A stretch of 64,000 bases of DNA from Salvelinus alpinus. Taxonomy: Eukaryota; Chordata; Actinopteri; Salmoniformes; Salmonidae. The DNA lies in contig NC_092092.1 of assembly GCF_045679555.1 (NCBI RefSeq), positions 15,868,735 through 15,932,734 on the forward strand. Direction: 5' to 3'. A model generated the notes under the pieces. That model was not told the DNA's origin. It saw only the letters and a list, made by a program, of their open reading frames with translations, and did not search any database. Shown here piece after piece: positions 17,421-44,700 of this stretch (its first letter is position 1; each line of letters opens with the position of its first letter). A program made the translations under genes and the position numbers.

Positions 17421-17552
17421 TCAATGTACAATGAGGGCCCCGGCTGCGTAGCTAACAGAGCTGTCCTGCCAGTTCCTGCACTGGGACGACTGGGCATAGT
17501 TCAGGAAGGAGAACTTCATCTCTGTTCCACTCGTCCTCAGCTCAGACACGGC
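17421..17552 (-). CDS. memo1: memo1 coding exon 9 with stop
   Basis: Acceptor TGTTGTCCAG, 43 codons plus TGA at 17423-17421. It encodes [20 protein letters not shown] and ends [10 protein letters not shown], the conserved C-terminus of MEMO1. Confidence 0.96.
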   Translation of the reverse strand, partial: AVSELRTSGTEMKFSFLNYAQSSQCRNWQDSSVSYAAGALIVH

Positions 17553-20500
17553 CTGGACAACACAGCAGGAAGAAAGAAAGCAACAGTCAGATGTATACTA
17601 CCGTTCAAAAGTTTACGGTCAGTTTGAAATGTCCTTGTTTTTTGAAAGAAAAGCCCTTTTTTTTTTGTCCATTAAAATAACATCGTACAGAGGCCCATTA
17701 TCAGCAACCATTACTCCTGTGTTCCAATGGGGCCTCCCACTCCTCGTTCTATTCTGGTTAGAGCCAGTTTGTGCTGTTCTGTGAAGGGAGTAGTACACAG
17801 CGTTGTACGAGATCTTCAGTTTCTTGGCAATTTCTCTCATGGAATAGCCTTCATTTCTCAGAACAACAATAGACTGACGAGTTTCAGAAGAAAGTTCTTT
17901 GTTTCTGGCCATTTTGAGCCTGTAATCGAACCCACAAATGCTGATGCTCCAGATGCTCAACTAGTCTAAAGGACAGTTTTATTGCTTCTTTAATCAGAAC
18001 AACAGTTTTCAGCTGTGCTAACATAATTGCAAAAGGGTTTTCTAATGATCAATTAGCCTTTTAAAATGATAAACTTGGATTTGCTAACACAACGTGCCAT
18101 TGGAACACAGCCGTTTCCAGCTACAATAGTCATTTATAACATTAACAATGTCTACACTGTATTTCTGATCAATTTGATGTTATTTTAAAATGGACAAAAG
18201 TGCTTCTCTTTCAAAAACAAGGAACTGTTTAAGCAAACTTTTGAACGGTAGTGTACATCACATGACACAGGAACAGTCAGATATACAACACATGACACAG
18301 GAACAGTCAGATATACATCACATGACACAGGAACAGTCAGATATACATCACATGACACAGGAACAGTCAGATATACATCACATGACACAGGAACAGTCAG
18401 ATATACATCACATGATACAGGAACAGTCAGATATACATCAGGACACAGGAACAGTCAGATATACATCACATGACACAGGAACAGTCAGATATACATCACA
18501 TGACACAGGAACAGTCAGATATACAACACATGACACAGGAACAGTCAGATATACATCACATGACACAGCAACAGTCAGATATACATCACATGACACAGGA
18601 ACAGTCAGATATACATCACATGACACAGGAACAGTCAGATATACACATCACATGACACAGGAACAGTCAGATATACACATCACATGACACAGGAACAGTC
18701 AGATATACACATCACATGACACAGGAACAGTCAGATATACACATCACATGACACAGGAACAGTCAGATATACACATCACATGACACAGGAACAGTCAGAT
18801 ATACACATCACATGACACAGGAACAGTCAGATATACATCACATGATACAGGAACAGTCAGATATACATCACATGACACAGGAACAGTCAGATATACATCA
18901 CATGACACAGGAACAGTCAGATATACATCACGACACATGCCTGTGTGCAAGAGGATCTGTATAACTAACAAAGGTGTTCTGTAGATGTCAGATGATAATG
19001 TGGTTGTTGTCGTTATGACTCACGTTTAGCAGCACTCCAATAGGATGACGTCCACAGATGGTGTTGTGGTATTTCTTCAAGTAGTTGGTGAAGGACATAG
19101 GGTCCAGTGTTTCTATAATGCCCATACCCTGGAGAGACAAGAGAGAGGGGTTTAGAACCCAGTCTGATACCCCTAACAGTTAACTATATAACCCTAACCC
19201 TGGAGAGACAAGAGAGAGGGGTTTAGAACCCAGTCTGATACCCCTAACAGTTAACTATATAACCCTAACCCTGGAGAGACAAGAGAGAGGGGTTTAGAAC
19301 CCAGTCTGATACCCCTAACAGTTAACTATATAACCCTAACCCTGGAGAGACAGAGAGAGAGGGGTTTAGAACCCAGTCTGATACCCCTAACAGTTAACTA
19401 TATAACCCTAACCCTGGAGAGACAAGAGAGAGGGGTTTAGAACCCAGTCTGATACCCCTAACAGTTAACTATATAACCCTAACCCTGGAGAGACGAGAGA
19501 GAGAGGGGTTTAGAACCCAGTCTGATACCCCTAACAGTTAACTATATAACCCTAACCCTGGAGAGACAAGAGAGAGGGGTTTAGAACCCAGTCTGATACC
19601 CCTAACAGTTAACTATATAACCCTAACCCTGGAGAGACAAGAGAGAGGGGTTTAGAACCCAGTCTGATACCCCTAACAGTTAACTATATAACCCTAACCC
19701 TGGAGAGACAAGAGAGAGGGGTTTAGAACCCAGTCTGATACCCCTAACAGTTAACTATATAACCCTAACCCTGGAGAGACAAGAGAGAGGGGTTTAGAAC
19801 CCAGTCTGATACCCCTAACAGTTAACTATATAACCCTAACCCTGGAGAGACGAGAGAGAGAGGGGTTTAGAACCCAGTCTGATACCCCTAACAGTTAACT
19901 ATATAACCCTAACCCTGGAGAGACAAGAGAGAGGGGTTTAGAACCCAGTCTGATACCCCTAACAGTTAACTATATAACCCTAACCCTGGAGAGACAAGAG
20001 AGAGGGGTTTAGAACCCAGTCTGATACCCCTAACAGTTAACTATATAACCCTAACCCTGGAGAGACAAGAGAGAGGGGTTTAGAACCCAGTCTGATACCC
20101 CTAACAGTTAACTATATAACCCTAACCCTGGAGAGACAAGAGAGAGGGGTTTAGAACCCAGTCTGATACCCCTAACAGTTAACTATATAACCCTAACCCT
20201 GGAGAGACAGAGAGAGAGCGGTTTAGAACCCAGTCTGATACCCCTAACAGTTAACTATATAACCCTAACCCTGGAGAGACAAGAGAGAGGGGTTTAGAAC
20301 CCAGTCTGATACCCCTAACAGTTAACTATATAACCCTAACCCTGGAGAGACAAGAGAGAGGGGTTTAGAACCCAGTCTGATACCCCTAACAGTTAACTAT
20401 ATAACCCTAACCCTGGAGAGACAAGAGAGAGGGGTTTAGAACCCAGTCTGATACCCCTAACAGTTAACTATATAACCCTAACCCTGGAGAGACAAGAGAG

Positions 20501-23500
20501 AGGGGTTTAGAACCCAGTCTGATACCCCTAACAGTTAACTATATAACCCTAATCCTGGAGAGACGCGAGAGAGGGGTTTAGAACCCAGTCTGATACCCCT
20601 AACAGTTAGCTATATAACCCTAACCCTGGAGAGACAAGAGAGAGGGGTTTAGAACCCAGTCTGATACCCCTAACAGTTAGCTACAGTACCGGTCAAAAGT
20701 TGACACACCTATTCATTATAGGATTTTTCTTGATTTTTACTATTTTCTACATTATAGAATAGTAGTGAAGACATCACAACTACGAAATAACACAAATGGA
20801 TCATGAAGTAACCAAGAAAGTGTTTTCTTCAAAGTAGCCACCCTTTCTTTGCCTTGATGACAGCTTTGCACACTCTTGGCATTCTCTCAACCAGCTTCAT
20901 GAGGTAGTCACCTGGAATGCATTTCAATTAAAAGGTGTGCCTTGCTAAAAGTGAATTTGTGGAATTTATTTCCTTCTTTAATGCGTTTGAGCCAATCAGT
21001 TGTGTTGTGACAAGGTAGGGATGGTATACAGAAGATAGCCCTATTTAGTAAAAGACCAAGTCCATATTATGGTAAGAACAGCTAAAATAAGCAAAGAGAA
21101 ACGACAGTCCATCATTACTTTAAGACATGAAGGTCAGTCAAAACGTAAACTTCAAGAACTTTGAACGTTTTTTCAAGTGCAGTCGCAAAAACCATCAAGC
21201 GTTGTGATGAAACTGGCTCTCATGAGGACCGCCGCAGGAAAGGAAGACACAGAGTTACCTCTGCTGCAGAGGATAAGGTCATTAGAGTTACCAGCCTCAG
21301 AAATTGCAGCCCACATAAATGCTTCACAGAGTTCAAGTAACAGACACATCTCAACATTAACTGTTCAGAGGAGACTGTGTGAATCAGGCCTTCATGGTCG
21401 AATTGCTGCAAAGAAACCACTACTAAAGGACACCAATAAGAAGAGACTTGTTGGGCCAAGAAACACGAGCAATGGACATTAGACCGGTGGAAATCTGTCA
21501 TTTGGTCTGATGAGTGCAAATGTGAGATTTTTGGTTCCAACCACTGTGTCTTTGTGAGACGCAGAACGGATGATCTCCGCATGTGTATTTCCCACCGTGA
21601 AGCATGGAGGAGGAGGTGTGACTGTCTGTGAGTTATTTAGAATTCAAAGCACACTTAACCAGCATGGCTACCACAGCATTCTGCAGCGATACGCCATCAC
21701 ATCTGGTTTGCGCTTAGTGGGACTATCATTTGTTTTTCAACTGGACAATGACCCAACACACCTTCAGGCTGTGTAAGGCCTATTTGACCAAGAAGGAGAG
21801 TGATGGAGTGCTGCATCAGATGACCTGGCCTCCGCAATCACCCGACCTCAACCCAATTGAGCTGGTTTGGGATGAGTTGGACCGCAGAGTGAAAGAAAAG
21901 CAGCCAACAAGGAAAAGCATTCCAGGTGAAGCTGGTTGAGAGAATGTCAAGAGTGTGCAACGCTGTCATCAAGGAGGCAAAGGGTGGCTACTTGGAAGAA
22001 TCTCAAATATGAAGTGGAAACGTCTTGGAGCAATGATGGCTCAGCCGCGAAGTGGTCGGCCACACAAGCTCACAGAACAGGACCGCTGAGGGCTGAAGCG
22101 CATAAAAATCGTCTGTCCTCAGTTGCAACCCTCACTACCGAGTTCCAAACTGGCTCTGGAAGCAACGTCAGCACAATAACTGTTGGTCGGGAGCTTCATG
22201 AAATGGGTTTCCGTGGCCAAGCAGCCGCACACAAGCCTAAGATCACCATGCGCAATGCCAAGCGTTGGCTAGAGTGGTGTAAAGCTCGCCGCCATTGGAC
22301 TCTGGAAACATCTTCTCTGGAGTGATGAATCACGCATCACCATCTGGCAGTCCAACGGACTAATCTGGGTTTGGATACCAGGCGAACACCACCTGCCCGA
22401 AAGCATAGTGCCAAGTGTAAAGTTTGGTGGAGGAGGGTTAATGGTCTGGGGCTGTTTTTCATGGTTCAGGCCCCTTAGTTCCAGTGAAGGAATCTTAATA
22501 CTACAGCATACAATGTAATTATAGATGATTCTGTGGTGGCAACAGTTTGGGGAAGGCCCTTTCCAGTTTCAGCATGACGATGCCCCGGTGCACAAAGCGA
22601 GGTCCATACAGAAACAGTTTGTTGAGATCGGTGTGGAAGAACTTGACTGGCCTGCACAGAGCCCTGACCTCAACCCCATCGAACACCTTTGGGATGAATT
22701 GGAAAGCCAACTGCCAGCCAGGTCTTATCGCCCAACATCAGTGCCTGACCTCACTAATGCTCTTATGGCTGAATGGAAGCAAGTCCCCACAGCAATGTTC
22801 CAACATCTAGTGGAAAGACTTCCCAGAAGAGTGGAGGCTGATACAGCAGCAAAGGAGGGACCAACTTCATATTAATGCCCATGATTTTGGAATGAGATGT
22901 TTGACGAGCAGGTGTCCACATACTTTTGGTCAAGTAGTGTATTTTACATATGTTATTGCAGGTGTAGCGAAACGTTTATGTTCCTAGCTTCAACAGTGCA
23001 GTAAATACTTAACAATATAAGCAAATCCCAAAAAACAGAAGAGAACGGAATTAAGAAATATAGAAATATTAGAACAAGCAATGTCAGAGTCCGGGAATAT
23101 ATAAAAACAGATATGATGGTGTGTATAGACATCTTTCATGTTACTGCCTAGAAAGACCTGAATATCACAATGTGTTTACCATTTTATCAAGGTGTTCAAT
23201 CGATCTGTGGATCTCTCCTTGAGCCTCGTCATAGTACGTGTAACGGAACCGTTGACCTGTGGGAAGGAGGTAAACATATTAACCGTTGGCCTGTGGGAAA
23301 GAGGTAAACATATTAACCTTTGACCTGTGGGAAGGAGGTAGACATATTAACCTTTGACCTGTGGGAAGGAGGTAAACATATTAACCTTTGACCTGTGGGA
23401 AGGAGGTAAACATATTAACCGTTGACCTGTGGGAAGGAGGTAAACATATTAACCGTTGACCTGTGGGAAGGAGGTAGACATATTAACCTTTGACCTGTGG

Positions 23501-26500
23501 GAAAGAGGTAAACATATTAACCCTTGACCTGTGGGAAAGAGGTAAACATATTAACCTTTGACCTGTGGGAAAGAGGTAAACATATTAACCTTTGACCTGT
23601 GGGAAGGAGGTAGACATATTAACCTTTGACCTGTGGGAAGGAGGTAAACATATTAACCTTTGACCTGTGGGAAGGAGGTAGACATATTAACCGTTGGCCT
23701 GTGGGAAGGAGGTAAACAAATTAACCTTTGACCTGTGGGAAGGAGGTAGACATATTAACCGTTGGCCTGTGGGAAGGAGGTAAACATATTAACCTTTGAC
23801 CTGTGGGAAGGAGGTAGACATATTAACCGTTGGCCTGTGGGAAGGAGGTAAACATATTAACCTTTGACCTGTGGGAAGGAGGTAGACATATTAACCGTTG
23901 GCCTGTGGGAAGGAGGTAGACATATTAACCGTTGACCTGTGGGAAAGAGGTAAACATATTAACCGTTGACCTGTGGGAAGGAGGTAGACATATTAACCTT
24001 TGACCTGTGGGAAGGAGGTAAACATATTAACCGTTGACCTGTGGGAAAGAGGTAAACATATTAACCGTTGACCTGTGGGAAGGAGGTAAACATATTAACC
24101 GTTGACCTGTGGGAAGGAGGTAAACATATTAACCTTTGACCTGTGGGAAGGAGGTAGACATATTAACCTTTGACCTGTGGGAAGGAGGTAAACATATTAA
24201 CCTTTGACCTGTGGGAAGGAGGTAAACATATTAACCTTTGACCTGTGGGAAAGAGGTAGACATATTAACCGTTGGCCTGTGGGAAGGAGGTAAACATATT
24301 AACCTTTGACCTGTGGGAAGGAGGTAAACATATTAACCGTTGGCCTGTGGGAAGGAGGTAAACAAATTAACCTTTGACCTGTGGGAAAGAGGTAAACATA
24401 TTAACCGTTGACCTGTGGGAAGGAGGTAGACATATTAACCTTTGACCTGTGGGAAAGAGGTAAACATATTAACCTTTGGCCTGTGGGAAGGAGGTAGACA
24501 TATTAACCTTTGACCTGTGGGAAGGAGGTAGACATATTAACCTTTGACCTGTGGGAAGGAGGTAAACATATTAACCTTTGACCTGTGGGAAAGAGGTAAA
24601 CATATTAACCCTTGACCTGTGGGAAGGAGGTAAACATATTAACCCTTGACCTGTGGGAAAGAGGTAAACATATTAACCGTTGGCCTGTGGGAAGGAGGTA
24701 AACATATTAACCTTTGACCTGTGGGAAAGAGGTAAACATATTAACCCTTGACCTGTGGGAAAGAGGTAAACATATTAACCCTTGACCTGTGGGAAGGAGG
24801 TAAACATATTAACCCTTGACCTGTGGGAAAGAGGTAAACATATTAACCGTTGGCCTGTGGGAAGGAGGTAAACATATTAACCTTTGACCTGTGGGAAGGA
24901 GGTAAACATATTAACCCTTGACCTGTGGGAAAGAGGTAAACATATTAACCCTTGACCTGTGGGAAGGAGGTAGACAAATTAACCTTTGACCTGTGGGAAG
25001 GAGGTAGACAAATTAACCGTTGGCCTGTGGGAAGGAGGTAAACATATTAACCTTTGACCTGTGGGAAGGAGGTAGACAAATTAACCGTTGACCTGTGGGA
25101 AGGAGGTAAACATATTAACCTTTGACCTGTGGGAAAGAGGTAAACATATTAACCTTTGACCTGTGGGAAGGAGGTAAACATATTAACCCTTAAATCATAC
25201 ATTTTCATCACTAATTGTGTATAAAATGGGAAATTACAAGGTTGACAAATGTTGACGTCTAAAATAGCATTTTAGAATGATGAATTTACTAATGTTTAAA
25301 ACTTTTAGGAACACTTGAAAAATATGCAGGTGGTTGAGTTGCCCATTAAAGGAATGATATTTAGTCAAAGGTGGCTATTATGGACAACGGAGGACTATAG
25401 TTATGGGATTGGTTAGTCTGTCATATCCATATTAGTATTTACTGTCTGTTATCTTCAAAATCTTTCACAATATTATTCAGTACATTTTACTTGTACTAAG
25501 CATTTAAAACTGTAATTAATTTACATATACAGTGAGCTCCAAAAGTGAAGTAGTGACATGTGTAGTTTTGTCCCTGTCCTCCAGCACTTTAGATTGGAAA
25601 TGATACAATGACGGCGAGGTTACAGTGCAGACTGTCAGCTTTAATCAGAGGGTATTTTCATCCACATCGGGTGAAGCATTTACAATTTACAGGACTTATT
25701 GTACATGGGTACACCCCCATTTTAAGGGACCAACAGTATTATGACTACCTTTTGGATGCTTTTGCTGGTTGTTTTGGTTGTTTTCAGATTATGTTGTGCC
25801 CAATAGAAATGAATGGTAAATAATGTATTATTTACCCCAGGAAGAGTAGCTGCCGCCTTGGCAGGAACTAATGGGGATCCATAATAAATACAAATATAAA
25901 TAAGAATAGAATACATTTATAAACACTTCTACATTAATGTGGATGCTACCATGATTACAGATAATCCTGAATCAGTCGTGAATAATAAAATGGGTGAGAA
26001 AGTTAGACGCACAAATATCACAGAGCAAAACAATGCTAACCTCTGTTGTTATTGTGAGAGGTTAGCAAAACAATGCTAACCTCTGTTGTTATTGTGAGAG
26101 GTTAGCAAAACAATGCTAACCTCTCTTGTTATTGTGAGAGGTTAGCAAAACAATGCTAACCTCTGTTGTTATTGTGAGAGTTTAGCAAAACAATGCTAAC
26201 CTCTGTTGTTATTGTGAGAGGTTAGCAAAACAATGCTAACCTCTGTTATTATTGTGAGAGGTTAGCAAAACAATGCTAACCTCTGTTGTTATTGTGAGAG
26301 GTTAGCAAAACAATGCTAACCTCTGTTGTTATTGTGAGAGGTTAGCAAAACAATGCTAACCTCTGTTGTTATTGTGAGAGGTTAGCAAAACAATGCTAAC
26401 CTCTGTTGTTATTGTGAGAGGTTAGCAAAACAATGCTAACCTCTGTTGTTATTGTGAGAGGTTAGCAAAACAATGCTAACCTCTGTTGTTATTGTGAGAG

Positions 26501-29500
26501 GTTAGCAAAACAATGCTAACCTCTGTTGTTATTGTGAGAGTTTAGCAAAACAATGCTAACCTCTGTTGTTATTGTGAGAGGTTAGCAAAACAATGCTAAC
26601 CTCTGTTGTTATTGTGAGAGGTTAGCAAAACAATGCTAACCTCTGTTGTTATTGTGAGAGTTTAGCAAAACAATGCTAACCTCTGTTGTTATTGTGAGAG
26701 GTTAGCATATCTTGGAAGTATGATATGTTTGTCATTTTCTCACCCATCATTTAACTAGGCCAATCTTCCATCATAAGCAACTGAAGCACAAATTATATGA
26801 AATTTGCAACACGAAATGAGTTTACCCTAAATTGGGCAACTCAACCGGCTGGTCATTTTAAGTCATACAAATAACAATTATTTATGCCCTATACTGAGGC
26901 TAAATACAAGTATTCAAAAACTAAATCTGATATTTTTTGGGGTGAGTGACAGTTAAGACAGAATCATTGTTTCCTTATAGAACCCCTTTCACACGTTTGT
27001 CCTGAACCAAACTAACCTGGCTTTTCTTTCCCTCATCCTGAACCAAACTAACCTGGCTTTTCTTTCCCCTCATCCTGAACCAAACTAACCTGGCTTTTCT
27101 TTCCCTCATCCTGAACCAAACTAACCTGGCTTTTCTTTCCCTCATCCTGAACCAAACTAACCTGGCTTTTCTTTCCCTCATCCTGAACCAAACTAACCTG
27201 GCTTTTCTTTTCCCTCATCCTGAACCAAACTAACCTGGCTTTACTTTCCCCTCATCCTGAACCAAACTAACCTGGCTTTTCTTTCCCTCATCCTGAACCA
27301 AATTAACCTGGCTTTTCTTTCCCTCATCCTGAACCAAACTAACCTGGCTTTTCTTTCCCTCATCCTGAACCAAACTAACCTGGCTTTTCTTTCCCCTCAT
27401 CCTGAACCAAACTAACCTGGCTTTTCTTTCCCCTCATCCTGAACCAAACTAACCTGGCTTTTCTTTCCCTCATCCTGAACCAAACTAACCTGGCTTTTCT
27501 TTCCCCTCATCCTGAACCAAACTAACCTGGCTTTTCTTTCCCTCATCCTGAACCAAACTAACCTGGCTTTTCTTTCCCTCATCCTGAACCAAACTAACCT
27601 GGCTTTTCTTTCCCTCATCCTGAACCAAACTAACCTGGCTTTTCTTTTCCCTCATCCTGAACCAAACTAACCTGGCTTTACTTTCCCCTCATCCTGAACC
27701 AAACTAACCTGGCTTTTCTTTCCCTCATCCTGAACCAAATTAACCTGGCTTTTCTTTCCCTCATCCTGAACCAAACTAACCTGGCTTTTCTTTCCCTCAT
27801 CCTGAACCAAACTAACCTGGCTTTTCTTTTCCCTCATCCTGAACCAAACTAACCTGGCTTTTCTTTCCACTTGTCCTGAACCAAACTAACCTGGCTTTTC
27901 TTTCCCTCATCCTGAACCAAACTAACCTGGCTTTTCTTTCCCTCATCCTGAACCAAACTAACCTGGCTTTTCTTTCCCTCATCCTGAACCAAACTAACCT
28001 GGCTTTTCTTTTCCCTCATCCTGAACCAAACTAACCTGGCTTTTCTTTCCCTCATCCTGAACCAAACTAACCTGGCTTTTCTTTCCCTCATCCTGAACCA
28101 AACTAACCTGGCTTTTCTTTCCCCTCATCCTGAACCAAACTAACCTGGCTTTTCTTTCCCTCATCCTGAACCAAACTAACCTGGCTTTTCTTTCCCTCAT
28201 CCTGAACCAAACTAACCTGGCTTTACTTTCCCCTCATCCTGAACCAAACTAACCTGGCTTTTCTTTCCCTCATCCTGAACCAAAGTAACCTGGCTTTACT
28301 TTCCCCTCATCCTGAACCAAACTAACCTGGCTTTTCTTTTCCCTTCATCCTGAACCAAACTAACCTGGCTTTTCTTTCCCTCATCCTGAACCAAACTAAC
28401 CTGGCTTTTCTTTCCCTCATCCTGAACCAAAGTAACCTGGCTTTACTTTCCCCTCATCCTGAACCAAACTAACCTGGCTTTTCTTTTCCCTTCATCCTGA
28501 ACCAAACTAACCTGGCTTTTCTTTCCCTCATCCTGAACCAAACTAACCTGGCTTTTCTTTCCCCTCATCCTGAACCAAACTAACCTGGCTTTTCTTTCCC
28601 TCATCCTGAACCAAACTAACCTGGCTTTTCTTTCCCTCATCCTGAACCAAACTAACCTGGCTTTTCTTTCCCTCATCCTGAACCAAACTAACCTGGCTTT
28701 TCTTTCCCTCATCCTGAACCAAAGTAACCTGGCTTTTCTTTCCCTCATCCTGAACCAAAGTAACCTGGCTTTTCTTTCCCTCATCCTGAACCAAACTAAC
28801 CTGGCTTTTCTTTCCCTCATCCTGAACCAAACTAACCTGGCTTTTCTTTCCCTCATCCTGAACCAAACTAACCTGGCTTTACTTTACCCTCATCCTGAAC
28901 CAAACTAACCTGGCTTTTCTTTTCCCTTCATCCTGAACCAAACTAACCTGGCTTTTCTTTCCCTCATCCTGAACCAAACTAACCTGGCATTTCTTTCCCT
29001 CATCCTGAACCAAACTAACCTGGCTTTTCTTTCCCTCATCCTGAACCAAAGTAACCTGGCTTTTCTTTCCCTCATCCTGAACCAAACTAACCTGGCTTTT
29101 CTTTCCCTCATCCTGAACCAAACTAACCTGGCTTTTCTTTCCAGCAACTACAGTGGAAGGATGTATAACCAGACTAGCTCAACTCAGTAGTGTGAACAGG
29201 GTATAATATATTGATCTTTACCAGTCCTGTTCTGTACGTACCCCAGTGGCAGAAGTCCGAGGAGATGATGAACAAGTTAGAGGGATCAGCCAGATACCTG
29301 CTGAGCAGTTTCCCATAATCCTGTTCTTTAGACTCACTGAGGGCTCCCACCAGCACCGGGACAATGCTGAGCTCATCTTTATGACTGCAGTAGGAAAGGG
29401 AGACAACACATTACAAGTCTGTACGGGTGTGGTGCACTGGGGACAGTTACCTGACCGAGATGGTAGAAGCCTTTACAGAGACTGAACACGTGTAACCCAA

Positions 29501-32500
29501 CCCGATTAAAAAGAAGGTGCGGGTGTTAACCCAACCCGATCAAAAAGAAGGTGCGGGTGTTAACCCAACCCGATCAAAAAGAAGGTGCGGGTGTTAACCC
29601 AACCCGATCAAAAAGAAGGTGCGGGTGTTAACCCAACCCGATCAAAAAGAAGGTGCGGGTGTTAACCCAACCCGATCAAAAAGAAGGTGCGGGTGTTAAC
29701 CCAACCCGATCAAAAAGAAGGTGCGGGTGTTAACCCAACCCGATCAAAAGGTGCGGGTGTTAACCCAACCCGATCAAAAGGTGCGGGTGTTAACCCAACC
29801 CGATCAAAAGGTGCGGGTGTTAACCCAACCCGATCAAAAGGTGCGGGTGTTAACCCAACCCGATCAAAAGGTGCGGGTGTTAACCCAACCCGATCAAAAG
29901 GTGCGGGTGTTAACCCAACCCGATCAAAAGGTGCGGGTGTTAACCCAACCCGATCAAAAGGTGCGGGTGTTAACCCAACCCGATCAAAAGGTGCGGGTGT
30001 TAACCCAACCCGATCAAAAGGTGCGGGTGTTAACCCAACCCGATCAAAAGGTGCGGGTGTTAACCCAACCCGATCAAAAGGTGCGGGTGTTAACCCAACC
30101 CGATCAAAAGGTGCGGGTGTTAACCCAACCCGATCAAAAGGTGCGGGTGTTAACCCAACCCGATCAAAAGGTGCGGGTGTTAACCCAACCCGATCAAAAG
30201 GTGCGGGTGTTAACCCAACCCGATCAAAAGGTGCGGGTGTTAACCCAACCCGATCAAAAGGTGCGGGTGTTAACCCAACCCGATCAAAAGGTGCGGGTGT
30301 TAACCCAACCCGATCAAAAGGTGCGGGTGTTAACCCAACCCGATCAAAAGGTGCGGGTGTTAACCCAACCCGATCAAAAGGTGCGGGTGTTAACCCAACC
30401 CGATTAAAAGGTGCGGGTGTTAACCCAACCCGATTAAAAGGTGCGGGTGTTAACCCAACCCGATTAAAAGGTGCGGGTGTTAACCCAACCCGATTAAAAG
30501 GTGCGGGTGTTAACCCAACCCGATTAAAAGGTGCGGGTGTTAACCCAACCCGATTAAAAGGTGCGGGTGTTAACCCAACCCGATCAAAAGGTGCGGGTGT
30601 TAACCCAACCCGATCAAAAGGTGCGGGTGTTAACCCAACTCGATTAAAAGGTGCGGGTGTTAACCCAACCCGATTAAAAGGTGCGGGTGTTAACCCAACC
30701 TGATTAAAAGGTACGGGTGTTAACCCAACCCGATTAAAAGGTGTGGGTGTTAACCCAACCTGATTAAAAGGTGCGGGTATTAACCCAACCTGATTAAAAG
30801 GTGCGGGTGTTAACCCAACCTGATTAAAAGGTGCGGGTGTTAACCCAACCTGATTAAAAGGTGTGGGTGTTTATTGAGAGGGTCCATTAATTGAGCATGC
30901 AGGCTTTACTTAGATTAGATTCTTGATTCATAATGAATCTCCATTAGTGACAGCTAGTTTTAGTGGGGTCCGACATAGTAAACAACCAATCATTAGTAAA
31001 CAATCATAAACCATAGTAATGATGCAAACCATCCTGGGGCTGAGGGAGACAGAACTACACAAAATGTCAAGGCAAACCCACAGATCTACTCCATTTGTCA
31101 TGAGGTCCTGCTGGCTCCCACAACAGGCCAGGTCTGTATAGTGCCTCTCTTACTGTACTCTCCACTGATGGATGGCTTGTGACGAACCAAGCAGACAACC
31201 CTGACAGACATGTACTCTGTCTTACCTCTCCATGGCTTTAGCTGTGTAAGGCAGGTGCATTTCAATGCTGTGCTCATCCTCGTCTGTCTGAAGACTCATC
31301 CTCTCAAACATCCCAGTCTTCCAGAGCTCAGCATAGACTACAGAGGGAGAGAGGGGTGAGGATTCAATATACAGAGGTCAACATAGACTAGAGAGGGAGA
31401 GAGGGGTGAGGATTCAATATACAGAGGTCAACATAGACTACAGAGGGAGGTGAGGATTCAATATACAGAGGTCAACATAGACTAGAGAGGGAGGTGAGGA
31501 TTCAATATACAGAGGTCAACATAGACTACAGAGGGAGGTGAGGATTCAATATACAGAGGTCAACATAGACTACAGAGGGAGAGAGGGGTGAGGATTCAAT
31601 ATACAGAGGTCAACATAGACTACAGAGGGAGGTGAGGATTTAATATACAGAGGTCAACATAGACTAGAGGGGGGGAGAGGGGTGAGGATTCAATATACAG
31701 AGGTCAACATAGACTACAGAGGGAGGTGAGGATTCAATATACAGAGGTCAACATAGACTAGAGGGGGAGGTGAGGATTCAATATACAGAGGTCAACATAG
31801 ACTAGAGAGGGAGAGAGGATTCAATATACAGAGGTCAACATAGACTAGAGAGGGGTGAGGATTCAATATACAGAGGTCAACATAGACTACAGAGGGAGGT
31901 GAGGATTCAATATACAGAGGTCAACATAGACTAGAGAGGGGTGAGGATTCAATATACAGAGGTCAACATAGACTAGAGGGAGGTGAGGATTCAATATACA
32001 GAGGTCAACATAGACTACAGAGGGAGAGAGGGGTGAGGATTCAATATACAGAGGTCAACATAGACTACAGAGGGAGTTGAGGATTCAATATACAGAGGTC
32101 AACATAGACTACAGAGGGAGGTGAGGATTCAATATACAGAGGTCAACATAGACTACAGAGGGAGGTGAGGATTCAATATACAGAGGTCAACATAGACTAC
32201 AGAGGGAGGTGAGGATTTAATATACAGAGGTCAACATAGACTAGAGAGGGAGGTGAGGATTCAATATACAGAGGTCAACATAGACTAGAGAGGGAGGTGA
32301 GGATTCAATATACAGAGGTCAACATAGACTAGAGAGGGAGGTGAGGATTCAATATACAGAGGTCAACATAGACTAGAGGGGGGGAGAGGATTCAATATAC
32401 AGAGGTCAACATAGACTAGAGAGAGGGGTGAGGATTCAATATACAGAGGTCAACATAGACTACAGAGGGAGGTGAGGATTTAATATACAGAGGTCAACAT

Positions 32501-35500
32501 AGACTACAGAGGGAGGTGAGGATTCAATATACAGAGGTCAACATAGACTAGAGAGAGGGGTGAGGATTCAATATACAGAGGTCAACATAGACTAGAGAGG
32601 GAGGTGAGGATTCAATATACAGAGGTCAACATAGACTAGAGAGGGAGGTGAGGATTCAATATACAGAGGTCAACATAGACTAGAGAGGGAGGTAGGGATT
32701 CAATATACAGAGGTCAACATAGACTACAGAGGGAGGTGAGGATTCAATATACAGAGGTCAACATAGACTAGAGGGAGGTGAGGATTCAATATACAGAGGT
32801 CAACATAGACTACAGAGGGAGTTGAGGATTCAATATACAGAGGTCAACATAGACTACAGAGGGAGGTGAGGATTCAATATACAGAGGTCAACATAGACTA
32901 CAGAGGGAGGTGAGGATTCAATATACAGAGGTCAACATAGACTACAGAGGGAGATGAGGATTCAATATACAGAGGTCAACATAGACTAGAGGGAGGTGAG
33001 GATTCAATATACAGAGGTCAACATAGACTAGAGGGAGGGGTGAGGATTCAATATACAGAGGTCAACATAGACTAGAGAGGGAAGTGAGGATTTAATATAC
33101 AGAGGTCAACATAGACTAGAGAGGGAGGTGAGGATTCAATATACAGAGGTCAACATAGACTAGAGAGGGAGGTGAGGATTCAATATACAGAGGTCAACAT
33201 AGACTAGAGAGGGAGGTGAGGATTTAATATACAGAGGTCAACATAGACTAGAGAGGGAGGTGAGGATTTAATATACAGAGGTCAACATAGACTAGAGAGG
33301 GAGGTGAGGATTCAATATACAGAGGTCAACATAGACTAGAGAGAGGGGTGAGGATTCAATATACAGAGGTCAACATAGACTAGAGAGGGAGGTGAGGATT
33401 TAATATACAGAGGTCAACATAGACTAGAGAGGGAGGTGAGGATTTAATATACAGAGGTCAACATAGACTAGAGAGGGAGGTGAGGATTTAATATACAGAG
33501 GTCAACATAGACTAGAGAGGGAGGTGAGGATTTAATATACAGAGGTCAACATAGACTAGAGAGGGAGGTGAGGATTTAATATACAGAGGTCAACATAGAC
33601 TAGAGAGGGAGGTGAGGATTTAATATACAGAGGTCAACATAGACTAGAGAGGGAGGTGAGGATTCAATATACAGAGGTCAACATAGACTAGAGAGGGAGG
33701 TGAGGATTCAATATACAGAGGTCAACATAGACTAGAGAGGGAGGTGAGGATTCAATATACAGAGGTCAACATAGACTAGAGAGGGAGGTGAGGATTCAAT
33801 ATACAGAGGTCAACATAGACTAGAGAGGGAGGTGAGGATTCAATATACAGAGGTCAACATAGACTAGAGAGGGAGGTGAGGATTCAATATACAGAGGTCA
33901 ACATAGACTAGAGAGGGAGGTGAGGATTCAATATACAGAGGTCAACATAGACTAGAGAGAGAGGTGAGGATTCAATATACAGAGGTCAACATAGACTAGA
34001 GAGGGAGGTGAGGATTCAATATACAGAGGTCAACATAGACTAGAGAGGGAGGTGAGGATTCAATATACAGAGGTCAACATAGACTACAGAGGGAGGTGAG
34101 GATTCAATATACAGAGGTCAACATAGACTAGAGAGGGAGGTGAGGATTCAATATACAGAGGTCAACATAGACTAGAGGGAGGGGTGAGGATTCAATATAC
34201 AGAGGTCAACATAGACTAGAGAGGGAGGTGAGGATTTAATATACAGAGGTCAACATAGACTAGAGAGGGAGGTGAGGATTCAATATACAGAGGTCAACAT
34301 AGACTAGAGAGGGGGTGAGGATTCAATATACAGAGGTCAACATAGACTAGAGAGGGAGGTGAGGATTCAATATACAGAGGTCAACATAGACTAGAGAGGG
34401 AGGTGAGGATTTAATATACAGAGGTCAACATAGACTAGAGAGGGAGGTGAGGATTCAATATACAGAGGTCAACATAGACTAGAGAGGGAGGTGAGGATTC
34501 AATATACAAGAGGGAGGTGAGGATTTAATATACAGAGGTCAACATAGACTAGAGAGGGAGGTGAGGATTTAATATACAGAGGTCAACATAGACTAGAGAG
34601 GGGTGAGGATTCAATATACAGAGGTCAACATAGACTAGAGAGAGGGGTGAGGATTCAATATACAGAGGTCAACATAGACTAGAGAGGGAGGTGAGGATTT
34701 AATATACAGAGGTCAACATAGACTAGAGAGGGAGGTGAGGATTTAATATACAGAGGTCAACATAGACTAGAGAGGGAGGTGAGGATTTAATATACAGAGG
34801 TCAACATAGACTAGAGAGGGAGGTGAGGATTTAATATACAGAGGTCAACATAGACTAGAGAGGGAGGTGAGGATTCAATATACAGAGGTCAACATAGACT
34901 AGAGAGGGAGGTGAGGATTTAATATACAGAGGTCAACATAGACTAGAGAGAGGGGTGAGGATTCAATATACAGAGGTCAACATAGACTAGAGAGGGAGGT
35001 GAGGATTTAATATACAGAGGTCAACATAGACTAGAGAGGGAGGTGAGGATTCAATATACAGAGGTCAACATAGACTAGAGAGGGAGGTGAGGATTTAATA
35101 TACAGAGGTCAACATAGACTAGAGAGGGAGGTGAGGATTTAATATACAGAGGTCAACATAGACTAGAGAGGGAGGTGAGGATTTAATATACAGAGGTCAA
35201 CATAGACTAGAGAGGGAGGTGAGGATTCAATATACAGAGGTCAACATAGACTAGAGAGGGAGGTGAGGATTTAATATACAGAGGTCAACATAGACTAGAG
35301 AGGGAGGTGAGGATTTAATATACAGAGGTCAACATAGACTAGAGAGGGAGGTGAGGATTCAATATACAGAGGTCAACATAGACTAGAGAGGGAGGTGAGG
35401 ATTTAATATACAGAGGTCAACATAGACTAGAGAGGGAGGTTTAGAGGTGATGATTATATGAGTACAGAGGTCAACATAGACTAGAGAGGGAGGTGAGGAT

Positions 35501-38500
35501 TTAATATACAGAGGTCAACATAGACTAGAGAGGAAGGGAGGTTTAATATACAGAGGTCGATAGACTAGAGATGGGAGGTGAGGATTTAATATACAGAGGT
35601 CAACATAGACTAGAGAGGGAGGTGAGGATTCAATATACAGAGGTCAACATAGACTAGAGAGGGAGGTGAGGATTTAATATACAGAGGTCAACATAGACTA
35701 GAGAGAGGGGTGAGGATTCAATATACAGAGGTCAACATAGACTAGAGAGGGAGGTGAGGATTCAATATACAGAGGTCAACATAGACTAGAGAGGGAGGTG
35801 AGGATTTAATATACAGAGGTCAACATAGACTAGAGAGGGAGGTGAGGATTTAATATACAGAGGTCAACATAGACTAGAGAGGGAGGTGAGGATTCAATAT
35901 ACAGAGGTCAACATAGACTAGAGAGGGAGGTGAGGATTTAATATACAGAGGTCAACATAGACTAGAGAGAGGGGTGAGGATTCAATATACAGAGGTCAAC
36001 ATAGACTAGAGAGGGAGGTGAGGATTCAATATACAGAGGTCAACATAGACTAGAGAGGGAGGTGAGGATTTAATATACAGAGGTCAACATAGACTAGAGA
36101 GGGAGGTGAGGATTCAATATACAGAGGTCAACATAGACTAGAGAGGGAGGTGAGGATTTAATATACAGAGGTCAACATAGACTAGAGAGGGAGGTGAGGA
36201 TTTAATATACAGAGGTCAACATAGACTAGAGAGGGAGGTGAGGATTTAATATACAGAGGTCAACATAGACTAGAGAGGGAGGTGAGGATTCAATATACAG
36301 AGGTCAACATAGACTAGAGAGGGAGGTGAGGATTTAATATACAGAGGTCAACATAGACTAGAGAGAGGGGTGAGGATTCAATATACAGAGGTCAACATAG
36401 ACTAGAGAGGGAGGTGAGGATTCAATATACAGAGGTCAACATAGACTACAGAGGGAGGTGAGGATTCAATATACAGAGGTCAACATAGACTAGAGAGGGA
36501 GGTGAGGATTCAATATACAGAGGTCAACATAGACTAGAGAGGGAGGTGAGGATTTAATATACAGAGGTCAACATAGACTACAGAGGGAGGTGAGGATTCA
36601 ATATACAGAGGTCAACATAGACTAGAGAGGGAGGTGAGGATTCAATATACAGAGGTCAACATAGACTAGAGAGAGGGGTGAGGATTTAATATACAGAGGT
36701 CAACATAGACTAGAGAGGGAGGTGAGGATTTAATATACAGAGGTCAACATAGACTAGAGAGGGAGGTGAGGATTCAATATACAGAGGTCAACATAGACTA
36801 CAGAGGGAGGTGAGGATTCAATATACAGAGGTCAACATAGACTAGAGAGGGAGGTGAGGATTCAATATACAGAGGTCAACATAGACTAGAGAGGGAGGTG
36901 AGGATTCAATATACAGAGGTCAACATAGACTACAGAGGGAGGTGAGGATTCAATATACAGAGGTCAACATAGACTAGAGAGGGAGGTGAGGATTCAATAT
37001 ACAGAGGTCAACATAGACTAGAGAGGGAGGTGAGGATTTAATATACAGAGGTCAACATAGACTAGAGAGGGAGGTGAGGATTTAATATACAGAGGTCAAC
37101 ATAGACTAGAGAGGGAGGTGAGGATTCAATATACAGAGGTCAACATAGACTACAGAGGGAGGTGAGGATTCAATATACAGAGGTCAACATAGACTAGAGA
37201 GGGAGGTGAGGATTTAATATACAGAGGTCAACATAGACTAGAGAGGGAGGTGAGGATTCAATATACAGAGGTCAACATAGACTACAGAGGGAGGGGTGAG
37301 GATTTAATATACAGAGGTCAACATAGACTAGAGAGGGAGGTGAGGATTTAATATACAGAGGTCAACATAGACTAGAGAGGGAGGTGAGGATTCAATATAC
37401 AGAGGTCAACATAGACTAGAGGGGGGGAGAGGATTCAATATACAGAGGTCAACATAGACTAGAGAGAGGGGTGAGGATTTAATATACAGAGGTCAACATA
37501 GACTAGAGAGGGAGGTGAGGATTCAATATACAGAGGTCAACATAGACTACAGAGGGAGGTGAGGTATCAACATGCACATTATTACTGGTGAAGTGAGGCT
37601 CGTATTAGCATTTGACTGCGAGTCATTCGTTCAGTCGCACCGATACGTGTTTGGCAGCGTCAGTGAGAACGTCTCTTTTCCAGTATCAGTCAGATGATTG
37701 GTCCTCTGAGGACAACTCGTGTTGTTTTTGTGTCAAGCAATCAAGACTGGATTAGGGCTGTGACGGTCATGGGATTTCAGATGACGGTAATTGGCCAGCC
37801 AAATGACCATGGTCTCGGTAATAACTTGAAGAATAATCATTAGGAACATTTTCTCCTGTCCTTCGCTCCGGCCTGCATGTGCTGCCATATGAAGAGAATA
37901 GAAGGGGCGACCCCATTCAAGTCAATGGTAGTGCAATGGTTGGACTGGAGGCCCTTGTGACTGTACCAATAGGAGCAAAACAGGAAGTGTACCCATCAAT
38001 ATGTGCTGTGATTTGTTGATTCAGCTCAATTTCCTCAATTCTTCACTACGAGATTCGGTTCCAACTTATTGGGAGAGGGAGTACTCCCCCTCTAGATTTT
38101 GCGAGTTTTCAGTCTTGGTATGTGTGTTTGCTTATGTAGGATGTGTTTGCTTGTGTAGCCAGTGCTTCCTTGCTCATGTAGGATGTGTTTGCTTGTGTAG
38201 CCAGTGCTTCCTTGCTCATGTAGGATGTGTTTGCTTGTGTAGCCAGTGCTTCCTTGCTTGAGTAAGATGGCCAGCGGTAAGAATAAGTTGAAAAAGTCTA
38301 ACCACCAGTCTGAACCTCCGACCGTGCCCTAGTTGGTTTTACAATGACAACGAAAGATACGAGGGCTGTCCTGTTGCCTAGGGTGGAAACCGGCTCCGGT
38401 GGCCTTGGCCCAGACCAGTTATGGAGAGGCCTTGGCCCAGACCAGTTATGAAGAGGCCTTGGCCCAGACCAGTTATGAAGAGGCCTTGGCCCAGACCAGT

Positions 38501-41500
38501 TATGAAGAGGCCTTGGCCCAGACCAGTTATGAAGAGGCCTTGGCCCAGACCAGTTATGAAGAGGCCTTGGCCCAGACCAGTTATGAAGAGGCCTTGGCCC
38601 AGACCAGTTATGAAGAGGCCTTGGCCCAGACCAGTTATGAAGAGGCCTTGGCCCAGACCAGTTATGGAGAGGCCTTGGCCCAGACCAGTTATGAAGAGGC
38701 CTTGGCCCAGACCAGTTATGGAGAGGCCTTGGCCCAGACCAGTTATGAAGAGGCCTTGGCCCAGACCAGTTATGAAGAGGCCTTGGCCCAGACCAGTTAT
38801 GAAGAGGCCTTGGCCCAGACCAGTTATGAAGAGGCCTTGGCCCAGACCAGTTATGGAGAGGCCTTGGCCCAGACCAAGGCCCCTCCTCCTGCTCTCCCTC
38901 TCAAGGCCCCTCCTCCGCCTGCTCTCCCTCTCAAGGCCCCTCCTCCGCCTGCTCTGACCTCTCAAGGCCCCTCCTCCTCCTGCTCTCCCTCTCAAGGCCC
39001 CTCCTCCTCCTGCTCTCCCTCTCAAGGCCCCTCCTCCGCCTGCTCTTCCTCTCAAGGCCCCTCCTCCGCCTGCTCTGACCTCTCAAGGCCCCTCCTCCGC
39101 CTGCTCTCCCTCTCAAGGCCCCTCCTCCGCCTGCTCTGACCTCTCAAGGCCCCTCCTCCGCCTGCTCTTCCTCCTCAAGGCCCCTCTGCCTGCTCTCCCT
39201 CTCAAGGCCCCTCCTCCGCCTGCTCTCCCTCACAAGGCCCCTCCACCTCCTGCTCTCCCTCTCAAGGCCCCTCCTGCTCTCCCTCTCAAGGCCCCTCCTC
39301 CTCCTGCTCTCCCTCTCAAGGCCCCTCCTCCGCCTGCTCTCCCTCTCAAGGCCACACCTCCGCCTGCTCTTCCTCCTCAAGGCCCCTCCTCCGCCTACTC
39401 TCCCTCTCAAGGCCCCTCCTCCGCCTACTCTCCCTCTCAAGGCCCCCCCTCCTCCTCCTGCTCTCCCTCTCAAGGCCCCTCCTCCGCCTGCTCTGACCTC
39501 TCAAGGCCCCTCCTCCGCCTGCTCTGACCTCTCAAGGCCCCTCCTCCTCCTGCTCTCCCTCTCAAGGCCCCTCCTCCTGCTGCTCTCCCTCTCAAGGCCC
39601 CTCCTCCGCCTGCTCTGACCTCTCAAGGCCCCTCCTCCGCCTGCTCTGACCTCAAGGCCCCTCCTCCTCTTCCTCCTCAAGGCCCCTCCTCCGCCTGCTC
39701 TCCCTCTCAAGGCCCCTCCTCCGCCTGCTCTCCCTCTCAAGGCCCCTCCTCCGCCTGCTCTCCCTCTCAAGGCCCCTCCTCCGCCTGCTCTCCCTCTCAA
39801 GGCCCCTCCTCCTGCTCTCCCTCTCAAGGCCCCTCCTCCACCTGCTCTGACCTCTCAAGGCCCCTCCTCCGCTTGCTCTGACCTCTCAAGGCCCCCCCTC
39901 CTCCTGCTCTGACCTCTCAAGGCCCCTCCTCCGCCTGCTCTGACCTCTCAAGGCCCCTCCTCCGCCTGCTCTGACCTCAAGGCCCCTCCTCCTCTTCCTC
40001 CTCAAGGCCCCTCCTCCGCCTGCTCTCCCTCTCAAGGCCCCTCCTCCGCCTGCTCTCCCTCTCAAGGCCCCTCCTCCGCTTGCTCTGACCTCTCAAGGCC
40101 CCTCCTCCGCCTGCTCTGACCTCTCAAGGCCCCTCCTCCGCCTGCTCTGACCTCTCAAGGCCCCTCCTCCGCCTGCTCTGACCTCTCAAGGCCCCTCCTC
40201 CGCCTGCTCTGACCTCTCAAGGCCCCTCCTCCGCCTGCTCTGACCTCTCAAGGCCCCTCCTCCGCCTGCTCTGACCTCTCAAGGCCCCTCCTCCGCCTGC
40301 TCTGACCTCTCAAGGCCCCCCCTCCTCCTGCTCTGACCTCTCAAGGCCCCTCCTCCGCCTGCTCTGACCTCTCAAGGCCCCTCCTCCGCCTGCTCTTCCT
40401 CCTCAAGGCCCCTCCTCCGCCTGCTCTTCCTCCTCAAGGCCCCTCCTCCGCCTGCTCTTCCTCCTCAAGGCCCCTCCTCCGCCTGCTCTCCCTCTCAAGG
40501 CCCCTCCTCCGCCTGCTCTCCCTCTCAAGGCCCCTCCTCCGCCTGCTCTCCCTCTCAAGGCCCCTCCTCCGCCTGCTCTCCCTCTCAAGGCCCCTCCTCC
40601 GCCTGCTCTCCCTCTCAAGGCCCCTCCTCCTCCTGCTCTCCCTCTCAAGGCCCCTCCTCCTCCTGCTCTCCCTCTCAAGGCCCCTCCTCCGCCTGCTCTC
40701 CCTCTCAAGGCCCCTCCTCCGCCTGCTCTCCCTCTCAAGACCCCTCCTCCTCCTGCTCTCCCTCTCAAGGCCCCTCCTCCGCCTGCTCTCCCTCTCAAGG
40801 CCCCTCCTCCGCCTGCTCTCCCTCACAAAGCCCCTCCTCCGCCTGCTCTGACCTCTCAAGGCCCCTCCTCCTCCTGCTCTCCCTCTCAAGGCCCCTCCTC
40901 CGCCTGCTCTCCCTCTCAAGGCCCCTCCTCCGCCTGCTCTCCCTCTCAAGGCCCCTCCTCCGCCTGCTCTCCCTCTCAAGGCCCCTCCTCCGCCTACTCT
41001 CCCTCCAGCTGTATCAGCTCTAGTTAATAAAGTTACTTCCATATGGACTTGTCTGCTGCTTCCCTAACGCTGATCTGACCACGTCAACACGGAACTGGTC
41101 GTCATCAGATCCGTTTGGAAAGAGTCTCTACATTGAAAAATGTATGTATGCGTATTTGTTCGGGTGGGAAAGCCCCAGGTCCATTTCAGAATGGGTCCAA
41201 CTTCTTAGACCTCTACTTGAGGCCCAAAAACAGACAACGCCAGGAACATTGTAAACACAGAAACTGGACTTGGGCCTGGAATAACGTGTTTTTTTTGGGC
41301 AAATAAACATAAATGAACTACAGTGTCTAAAGTTCATTTCTCCTCTGTACCGTAACCCCAAAACCACAACACGTACCGAAACATGGGTTTGGTGAACTGT
41401 TACACCCCTAGTTATGAATATAACTGCCGTTGCCTGAAGGAGGGAACGAGTTACAACATATTTTGGACCAAACCACCAGCAGAGTTTGGGCTCACTGAAG

Positions 41501-41627
41501 AGTGGTACTGAATTGAGGAAATGGATGCAAGCCCCGCTATTATAGCAGGGAGGCGGGGACAACTAGAAATGATCCATACCCTTCTGGTCAATCCTGAGGT
41601 GTTTTATAAACCTCAGCAGAGGACAGG

Positions 41628-41714
<87 letters not shown>

Positions 41715-44700
41715 CTACCCTTCTGGTCAATCCTGAGGTCGTAGAGAGGTGTTTTATAAACCTCAGCAGAGGACAGGGCACAGCGGGACAGAGGAACATG
41801 GTGAGACGGACCCAAGATGAACACCCTGCGACTACAGGGGAAAGAGAGGACTCAAGTCAGCTCACTGTCCTCAGTAGGACTCAGATCAGCATTGCAGCTC
41901 AGTGGACCAGTCATCATGGACCAGTCATCGTGGACCAGTCATCAGGCCACCAGTAAGGTCGGCCCGACCAGGCTTCGCTCACGCTGTTCCAAGGTGAGGC
42001 TGTGACAGAGGCTACTCCAATAGTGCTAACTACTGTCTGTGTGAGGTAACTACAGGCTGATAGTTCCTGCATGGTGAAACAGGGCAGGCTAAGGGTTTGA
42101 TAAGGAGGGAAAATGTAGAAAAATGATGATTTGATGATACTTAAAAAGTGTCCATGAAAATGTATTTTGTTACTGAGAGAATATGTTAAATTTAGAAACC
42201 TGACTGAACATATGTAACAGACGTAATGACTTACGTAACAGAAGGGTCTATTTGTTTGTAGGCGTGTGCAGCACAGGCACCGCAGTAGGAATACCCAGCA
42301 TGCCTGAAAACACATTACAACACACCATTACAACCTGCCTGGCTGACAACACATTACAACCTGCCTGGCTGACAACACATTACAACCTGCCTGGCTGACA
42401 ACACATTACAACCTGCCTGGCTGACAACACATTACAACCTGCCTGGCTGACAACACATTACAACCTGCCTGGCTGCCAACACATTACAACCTGCCTGGCT
42501 GACAACACATTACAACCTGCCTGGCTGACAACACATTACAACCTGCCTGGCTGACAACACATTACAACCTGCCTGGCTGACAACACATTACAACCTGCCT
42601 GGTTAAAAACACATTACAACCTGCCTGGCTGACAACACATTACAACCTGCCTGGCTGCCAACACATTACAACCTGCCTGGCTGACAACACATTACAACCT
42701 GCCTGGCTGACAACACATTACAAGACACCATTACAACCTGCCTGGCTGACAACACACCATTACAACCTGCCTGGCTGAAAACACATTACAACACACCATT
42801 ACAACCTGCCTGGCTGACAACACACCATTACAACCTGCCTGGCTGAAAACACATTACAACACACCATTACAACCAATAGAAAACATGACCCCCATTGCCC
42901 CAATCACAACAATCACATTTCAGTCATTCATATGCTGTTATCCAATAATACTCAGAATGAGTTGATGACAAGACGAGGCCTTTTCCTCGACTAGTAGTGG
43001 TGCTTACGGTGCTATGATGGCTCTAGCAGGGCTGACAGTGGAAGGTGCTTCAGACAGCCAACCCTCTAGTTGTGTATTCAGCTGGGAGCCTGCAGAGAGG
43101 GAAGAAAAACACTTCATTAATCCACACCAAACAGGAAGGACTCTTCTGCTGTACCCCAATGCCTCTTACACACAGGGGGAACAGAAATGACTCTTCTGCT
43201 GTACAATTATACCCTATAATACCCTTTACCCTTCAGTCCTGATTGGAAGTGATTCTAAAATACCCTATGTGGAAAATGATTGGTGGAAAAACAATTGGAA
43301 CCATTTCCCTGTTTGACCACTAGGTTTTATGGGGTATTATGACACCTCCACTGTGGGGCTCTTTAGTGCACTATATAGGGAATAGGGTCCAATAGGGCTC
43401 TGGTCTAAAGTAGTGCACTATATAGGGAATAGGGTGCCATTTGGGATGCCCCCTGAATGATGTCACCTAATCCCACACCAGCAAAGCTCCAGGCACTCTG
43501 ACCTTTCTGGACCACTCTGCTGATCCCTGACATTTAAGGCTACGTCCCAAATGGTGCCTTGCTCAAGGGCACAATGGAGGATTAATGTCCCTTTAATCAA
43601 TGTGACCCCCGACATCACTGTCTGACTGTATCTTGTTGGCTGGCTTCATCAGCCAGCACCTTCTTATGTGTGACTGACTGGGCTGGAGCAGAGAGATAAC
43701 AGAGAGACCTTGTTATGTGTGACTGGGCTGGAGCAGAGAGATAGCAGGGAGACCTTGTTATGTGTGACTGGGCTGGGCTGGAGCAGAGAGATAGCAGGGA
43801 GACCTTGTTATGTGTGACTGACTGGGCTGGAGCAGAGAGATAACAGGGAGACCTTGTTATGTGTGACTGACTGGGCTGGAGCAGAGAGATAACAGAGAGA
43901 CCTTGTTATGTGTGACTGACTGGGCTGGAGCAGAGAGATAACAGGGAGACCTTGTTATGTGTGACTGACTGGGCTGGAGCAGAGAGATAACAGGGAGACC
44001 TTGTTATGTGTGACTGACTGGGCTGGAGCAGAGAGATAACAGGGAGACCTTGTTATGTGTGAGCAGAGAGATAACAGGGAGACCTTGTTATGTGTGACTG
44101 ACTGGGCTGGAGCAGAGAGATAACAGAGAGACCTTGTTATGTGTGACTGACTGGGCTGGAGCAGAGAGATAACAGGGAGACCTTGTTATGTGTGACTGAC
44201 TGGGCTGAAGCAGAGAGATAACAGGGAGACCTTGTTATGTGTGACTGACTGGGCTGGAGCAGAGAGATAACAGGGAGACCTTGTTATGTGTGACTGGGCT
44301 GGAGCAGAGAGATAACAGGGAGACCTTGTTATGTGTGACTGACTGGGCTGGAGCAGAGAGATAACAGGGAGACCTTGTTATGTGTGACTGACTGGGCTGG
44401 AGCAGAGAGATATCAGGGAGACCTTGTTATGTGTGACTGACTGGGCTGGAGCAGAGAGATAACAGGGAGACCTTGTTATGTGTGACTGACTGGGCTGGAG
44501 AAGAGAGATAACAGGGAGACCTTGTTATGTGTGACTGACTGGGCTGGAGCAGAGAGATAACAGGGAGACCTTGTTATGTGTGACTGACTGGGCTGGAGCA
44601 GAGAGATAACAGGGAGACCTTGTATGTGTGACTGACTGGGCTGGAGCAGAGAGATAACAGAGAGACCTTGTTATGTGTGACTGACTGGGCTGGAGCAGAG

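Follow-up and report, generated by a model that had tools for sequence, protein, structure and literature searches.

Minisatellite arrays at four splice acceptors of memo1 in Salvelinus alpinus and their likely origin in junction-spanning duplications

The stretch of DNA analyzed here (C7:15868735-15932734; hereafter the window) comprises 64,000 nucleotides of the Salvelinus alpinus genome and holds, on its minus strand, the gene memo1, four introns of which end in minisatellite arrays with units that contain the splice acceptor itself. The gene has nine coding exons and eight introns, all of the GT..AG kind, and its joined exons give 297 codons without a stop. Exons were located with an approximate human MEMO1 query. 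The coding part of exon 1 lies at 55329..55389, exon 2 at 43008..43089, exon 3 at 42235..42303 (its acceptor just above 42303), exon 4 at 41719-41831, exon 5 at 31226..31337, exon 6 at 29242..29384, exon 7 at 23180..23256, exon 8 at 19024..19128 and exon 9, including the stop codon, at 17421..17552, all on the minus strand. The Pfam family Memo matches exons 4 and 6, both in the window copy and in a second copy of the gene on contig C3.

Arrays were called with Tandem Repeats Finder (TRF), full units were counted by wraparound alignment, and identities to exon bases were counted by eye. Read on the minus strand like the gene, the arrays are one of 26-bp units at the acceptor of exon 3 (42304..42874; TRF 42326-42874, with a degenerate last copy to 42304), one of 44-bp units at exon 5 (31322..37564; TRF 31347-37564 with 141.3 copies, plus alignment), one of 34-bp units at exon 7 (23247..25188; TRF, 57.1 copies) and one of 71-bp units at exon 8 (19113..20683; TRF 19126-20683 with 21.9 copies, plus alignment). 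The 26-bp unit appears in several overlapping TRF rows, and wraparound alignment counts 22 full units of it. The copies run head to tail and their units fall in the 10-100 bp range of minisatellites. An earlier note on this DNA had reported arrays at these four acceptors, and their presence and approximate dimensions (22 units of 26 bp, 141 of 44 bp, 57 of 34 bp and 22 of 71 bp) are confirmed. The arrays reach the acceptors, all four TRF edges lying within 22 bp of the first exon base, those of exons 7 and 8 reaching into the exon (-10 and -3) and those of exons 3 and 5 stopping 22 bp and 9 bp short of it. Among the other acceptors, the nearest TRF array ends of exons 2, 4, 6 and 9 are 568, 494, 129 and 701 bp away, and exon 6 has no array at its acceptor.

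Aligned to their own junctions, as the note had proposed, the units recover the end of their own intron at all four acceptors. In the exon 5 unit the end of the intron and TAG are followed by 16 nucleotides from the start of the exon (14 of 16 identical), and in the exon 7 unit the end of the intron and CAG are followed by the first 10 exon nucleotides, one position of which varies among units. The exon 8 unit has the intron end, CAG and GGT, then about 13 diverged exon-like nucleotides (11/16 overall), and probably carries 16 diverged exon bases. The exon 3 unit matches the final 18 intron bases at 17 positions, and alignment to its own junction demonstrates no exon bases in it. The duplicated segment crosses the intron-exon boundary at exons 5 and 7 and, by way of the diverged match, at exon 8. 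A pyrimidine tract and an AG are present in all four units, and the AG is preserved in nearly all units of exon 5 (about 99%) and in every full unit of exons 7 and 8 (100%). The claim that the units repeat the tract, the AG and in most cases some exon bases therefore stands for tract and AG throughout, and for exon bases at exons 5 and 7 and probably at exon 8, but not demonstrably at exon 3. Judging from the sequence of their units, the arrays of exons 5 and 7 are built from their own junction, that of exon 8 is probably so built, and that of exon 3 is built from its own acceptor at least.

The transcript of such a gene would be rich in false acceptors. An acceptor score matrix was trained on 91 acceptors of kinesin genes (the sample is described below), with the 5th percentile of the training set as cut-off. 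By this score, 240 AGs in the four arrays lie at or above the cut-off (24 at exon 3, 139 at exon 5, 56 at exon 7 and 21 at exon 8), a density of 23.4 per kb, the remainder of the gene having 4.84 per kb, and the expectation of a pre-mRNA with many acceptor-like decoys is supported. Of the 24 scoring AGs at exon 3, no fewer than 16 fall on a second AG of the unit, and only five score within one bit of the real acceptor. None of the four unit lengths (26, 44, 34 and 71 bp) is divisible by three, so that splicing to a decoy would in most cases disrupt the reading frame. Three of the units (those of exons 3, 5 and 8) have no donor-like GT, their best sites scoring 1.4, -0.3 and 2.1 bits; among 72 kinesin donors the 5th percentile is 5.2.

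Searches of the genome assembly (2.37 Gb, 928 contigs) skipped very common words and scored best candidates only, so that a dispersed copy could escape them. Within these limits the units are locus-specific, as is typical of minisatellites: the units of exons 7 and 3 were found in their own arrays only, that of exon 8 in the two memo1 copies only, and that of exon 5 in its own array and in one single copy at C3:4164118-4164164, which is the exon 5 junction of the duplicate. An origin of the units from a dispersed element, be it an introner or a transposon carrying splice sites, was considered and, within the same limits of the search, rejected, the units having been found only at memo1.

The duplicate on C3 provides a relative chronology of the arrays. 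Its reading frame is intact and its synonymous divergence (dS) from the C7 copy is 0.135. No array was found within 500 bp of its exon 3, 5 and 7 acceptors, and its exon 5 and 7 junctions are unamplified. Since these acceptors lack an array within that distance, the comparison indicates that the arrays of exons 3, 5 and 7 either postdate the separation of the two copies or have disappeared from C3. Their absence from C3 and the confinement of the units to memo1 agree with the proposal of the note that the amplifications were independent. The exon 8 array, in turn, is common to both duplicates and by this comparison older than the others. Its commonest 71-bp unit is letter-identical between them, accounting for 18 of 22 units on C7 and 4 of 9 on C3 (C3:4169835-4170462), although elsewhere in the alignable parts of the two regions, exons among them, identity is 68-93%. 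Four further arrays of the window (12251-12512, 13825-15243, 18254-18931 and 29514-30871) align with arrays on C3 in matching order at about 72-87% identity, and because of this correspondence they seem to predate the divergence of C7 and C3.

Repeats also approach or cross other exon ends of the gene. The exon 9 acceptor of C3 has an array that stops 24 bp short of the exon; on C7 the related array (18254-18931) is parted from exon 9 by a Tc1-like element, on the exon side of which a short unit-like piece of the exon 9 array persists, as seen by eye. The inserted element (17597-18253) is 657 bp long and has inverted ends and an open frame, again by eye. Two more open frames in memo1 introns, at 52690-54073 and 21149-22875 on the plus strand, resemble by eye the remains of Harbinger-type and Tc1-type transposases. 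An array lies 7 bp from the exon 8 donor on C3. At exon 4 it is the donor that has been duplicated (overall stretch 41574..41831, minus strand, from TRF and junction comparison). On C7 the donor is followed by a GT/CA microsatellite (41631-41712), behind which 51 nt of the exon 4 tail (41580-41630) appear a second time, again followed by a GT, and on C3 a tail duplicate (~62 nt) stands behind an ATAC microsatellite, with a GT following. This arrangement points to an old donor-spanning duplication present in both memo1 copies, and the duplicated exon 4 tail with its GT is a possible decoy donor.

Junctions outside memo1 were sampled in kinesin genes. The sample consists of 100 of 148 matches to the kinesin motor from one family search (6 long intronless matches, 4 neighbours and 38 others were left out); two of its stretches (L116 and L123) lack most of the upstream flank. 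A simple rule for calling splice sites gave 92 acceptors and 72 donors from the 100 exons. Arrays span 3 of the 92 acceptors (L077, L089 and L111) and 2 of the 72 donors (L055 and L084; p=1.0), and arrays that either span the junction or lie within 25 bp of it are found at 9 acceptors and 5 donors (p=0.58). The donor arrays mirror the acceptor ones, the 52-bp unit of L055 being composed of exon tail, donor and intron start. In L111 (C23:12463088) an array of 2.9 copies of an 84-bp unit, upstream of the exon, repeats the acceptor together with about the first 34 exon bases, the longest exon head seen in such an array here. Near-identical copies of junction 24-mers occur at 2 of 91 acceptors, 2 of 72 donors and none of 93 exon middles. 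An apparent depletion of junction relative to intronic 24-mers in the kinesin flanks (2/91 and 2/72 versus 21/253 and 12/206) was set aside and is not relied on, because the intronic points are biased towards expanded DNA. In the two copies of memo1 together, arrays span or lie within 25 bp of 6 of 16 acceptors versus 1 of 16 donors (p=0.08), a count in which the exon 8 array enters from both copies, leaving five independent acceptors. The donor-spanning arrays of kinesins and the exon 4 duplication of memo1 indicate that either end of an exon can be affected in this way. Junction arrays are consequently not confined to acceptors, and the shared mechanism aimed at acceptors or pyrimidine tracts that the note had put forward is not supported, in view of the likeness of kinesin donors and acceptors, the donor mirror arrays and the exon 4 donor duplication.

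The surroundings of these junctions differ greatly in repeat content. Arrays cover 60% of the window, 35% of 50 kb on C3 and 6.3% of the kinesin exon flanks; memo1 sits in far more array-rich DNA than the kinesin exons. Array density is regional in this genome (L010-L024, L126-L144 and C3:4164166), with 42% coverage of 150 kb in 15 chosen 10-kb stretches (3-20 Mb, nine contigs). Of 20 places drawn from 29 contigs with weighting by length, only 2 had arrays. A null built on the 42% background, by which an array spans 3.5% of random anchors and the counts of 3/92 and 2/72 are no excess, was dropped; because density is regional, such a background is unfair for kinesin exons, and it was replaced by the edge density in the same flanks. 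Around the 164 kinesin junctions, array edges per bp number 2.2e-3 within 25 bp, 2.8e-4 at 25-180 bp and 7.6e-4 in the first 40 exon bases. The spanning zone holds 5 edges (p=0.08) and is not clearly enriched; when low-complexity arrays are excluded, the p values are 4e-4 for the near zone and 0.036 for the spanning zone. Note that these zones were set after the data had been seen, that the numbers are small, and that some of the exons, judged by eye, are probably related to each other (L057 to L080 and L068 to L072).

We favour, with a probability of roughly 70%, the explanation that the memo1 arrays stem from chance duplications across junctions in array-rich DNA, which are tolerated since the copy on the exon side stays intact. 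The observations at its basis are the units confined to memo1, the unamplified exon 5 and 7 junctions on C3, the different ages of the arrays, the donor mirrors and the intact frame. We infer that the process would start with a short tandem duplication having one end in the intron and the other just inside the exon, and that unequal exchange or slippage would then multiply the copies on the intron side, with no selection needed. A duplication across an acceptor would leave a full acceptor and exon downstream, its upstream copies turning into intron, and a duplication across a donor would be the reverse of this case, donors being equally possible sites. Such an event would be harmless to the protein because on the exon side an entire acceptor would still adjoin an entire exon, and several arrays could accumulate in memo1 given the great abundance of minisatellites in the region. 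The breakpoints of exons 5 and 7 show, by eye, a microhomology of about 2 bp, too small to serve as evidence. The decoys would most likely be skipped through exon definition, the spliceosome pairing the acceptor nearest the exon body with the donor of that exon, and skipping is favoured because three of the four units are without a donor-like site.

A number of results weigh against this explanation. In a model that treats the arrays of the window as randomly placed seeds, a junction lies inside a seed with probability 0.048, and the resulting p values are 0.005 for 3 of 8 acceptors, 0.0003 for 4 of 8 and 0.04 for 3 of the 16 junctions, values that are uncorrected for the choice of memo1 as a striking gene. 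The 3/8 acceptors of memo1 also exceed the 3/92 of kinesins (p=0.006), and the memo1 donors are nearly free of arrays (1/16). In the kinesins, array edges are about eightfold denser in the 25 bp that flank exons on either side than farther out (9 edges versus 7 at 25-180 bp, p=9e-5; an exploratory comparison), and this clustering counts against chance because chance placement predicts none. The letter-identical exon 8 unit, found despite a dS of 0.135, suggests exchange between the loci or constraint; exchange is the simplest reading and constraint is possible. Finally, the argument from donor-less units is not absolute, because a donor-like site in the exon 7 unit reaches 6.2 bits and the genuine donor of exon 2 no more than 2.2 bits.

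The gathering of edges in kinesins (p=9e-5 within 25 bp, 0.08 in the spanning zone) is what would be expected if exon edges, donor and acceptor alike, were birthplaces of minisatellites in salmonids owing to some property of the border, such as a composition step, R-loops, pausing or break repair. Arrays of memo1 that end 22 bp from exon 3 on C7, 24 bp from exon 9 on C3 and 7 bp from the exon 8 donor on C3 fit this view as well. If it were true, introns in array-rich regions would lengthen from their ends, filling with their own splice sites that the spliceosome must ignore. We nevertheless consider it unlikely, given small numbers, cut-offs set post hoc and probable relatives among the exons; moreover, most near-zone arrays end before they reach the splice site and do not copy it, and if the pyrimidine tract is under selection, arrays that have diverged could appear to stop there.

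A narrower account, in which acceptors specifically are amplified through slippage in the pyrimidine tract or a process linked to splicing, would explain why tract and AG recur in all four units and why memo1 acceptors outnumber donors (6/16 versus 1/16, p=0.08). It is highly improbable in view of the kinesins, where no difference between acceptors and donors was seen in the sample (9/92 versus 5/72, p=0.58; 3/92 versus 2/72, p=1.0) and the arrays have donor mirrors. More improbable still is that selection keeps the arrays as regulators of splicing whose decoy acceptors lower or tune exon inclusion. The exon 8 array shared by both duplicates with an identical commonest unit (18/22 and 4/9), and the AG retained in nearly all exon 5, 7 and 8 units, could be read in this sense, but the C3 copy has an equally intact frame without the exon 3, 5 and 7 arrays, the AG is conserved no better than the rest of the homogenized unit, and homogenization or exchange between duplicates explains the identity of units.

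Whatever their origin, the arrays of memo1 amount to a natural experiment on splice-site choice, with about 240 acceptor-like decoys upstream of four exons and a duplicate without three of the four arrays. Under chance duplication, they also illustrate a simple route by which introns lengthen while the protein remains unharmed. Furthermore, they suggest that in array-rich regions of this kind gene prediction may put the starts of exons in the wrong place.

Related arrays are known from other systems, and no survey of splice-junction minisatellites was found in the open-licence literature searched. The closest case is the array in intron 4 of rainbow trout irak3, reported in 2019 with 4-5 copies and mentioned in passing in the relevant passages (PMC6763605). 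Its units, as given in Table 2 of that report, open with the start of the exon and close with CTAG, which leads us to infer that they span the acceptor. The irak3 transcripts are reported to use alternative acceptors, which the same passages do not tie to the array. In the genome analyzed here, the irak3-type motif has one exact match, and the stretch C11:11468800-11469900, assigned to irak3 by this motif alone, holds 3.7 copies of a 39-bp unit with a shared exon start in each. The trout array thus resembles those of memo1 in being made of units that apparently span an acceptor, but has 4-5 copies instead of up to 141. In potato, according to another report (PMC4974935), one junction-crossing tandem duplication created a new intron. 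As in memo1, the duplication lay over the intron-exon boundary and copied branch site, tract and acceptor; there, however, a single duplication yielded a new spliced intron, whereas in memo1 many copies have gathered inside an old intron. Tandem repeats are described as unusually dense in the Atlantic cod (passages of PMC5241972), and its intronic minisatellites share with memo1 the short tandem units and dense arrays. Unlike such ordinary minisatellites of fish introns, as described there, the memo1 units include the splice junction. On present evidence, memo1 is an extreme case of an already known kind of array and reveals no new mechanism.

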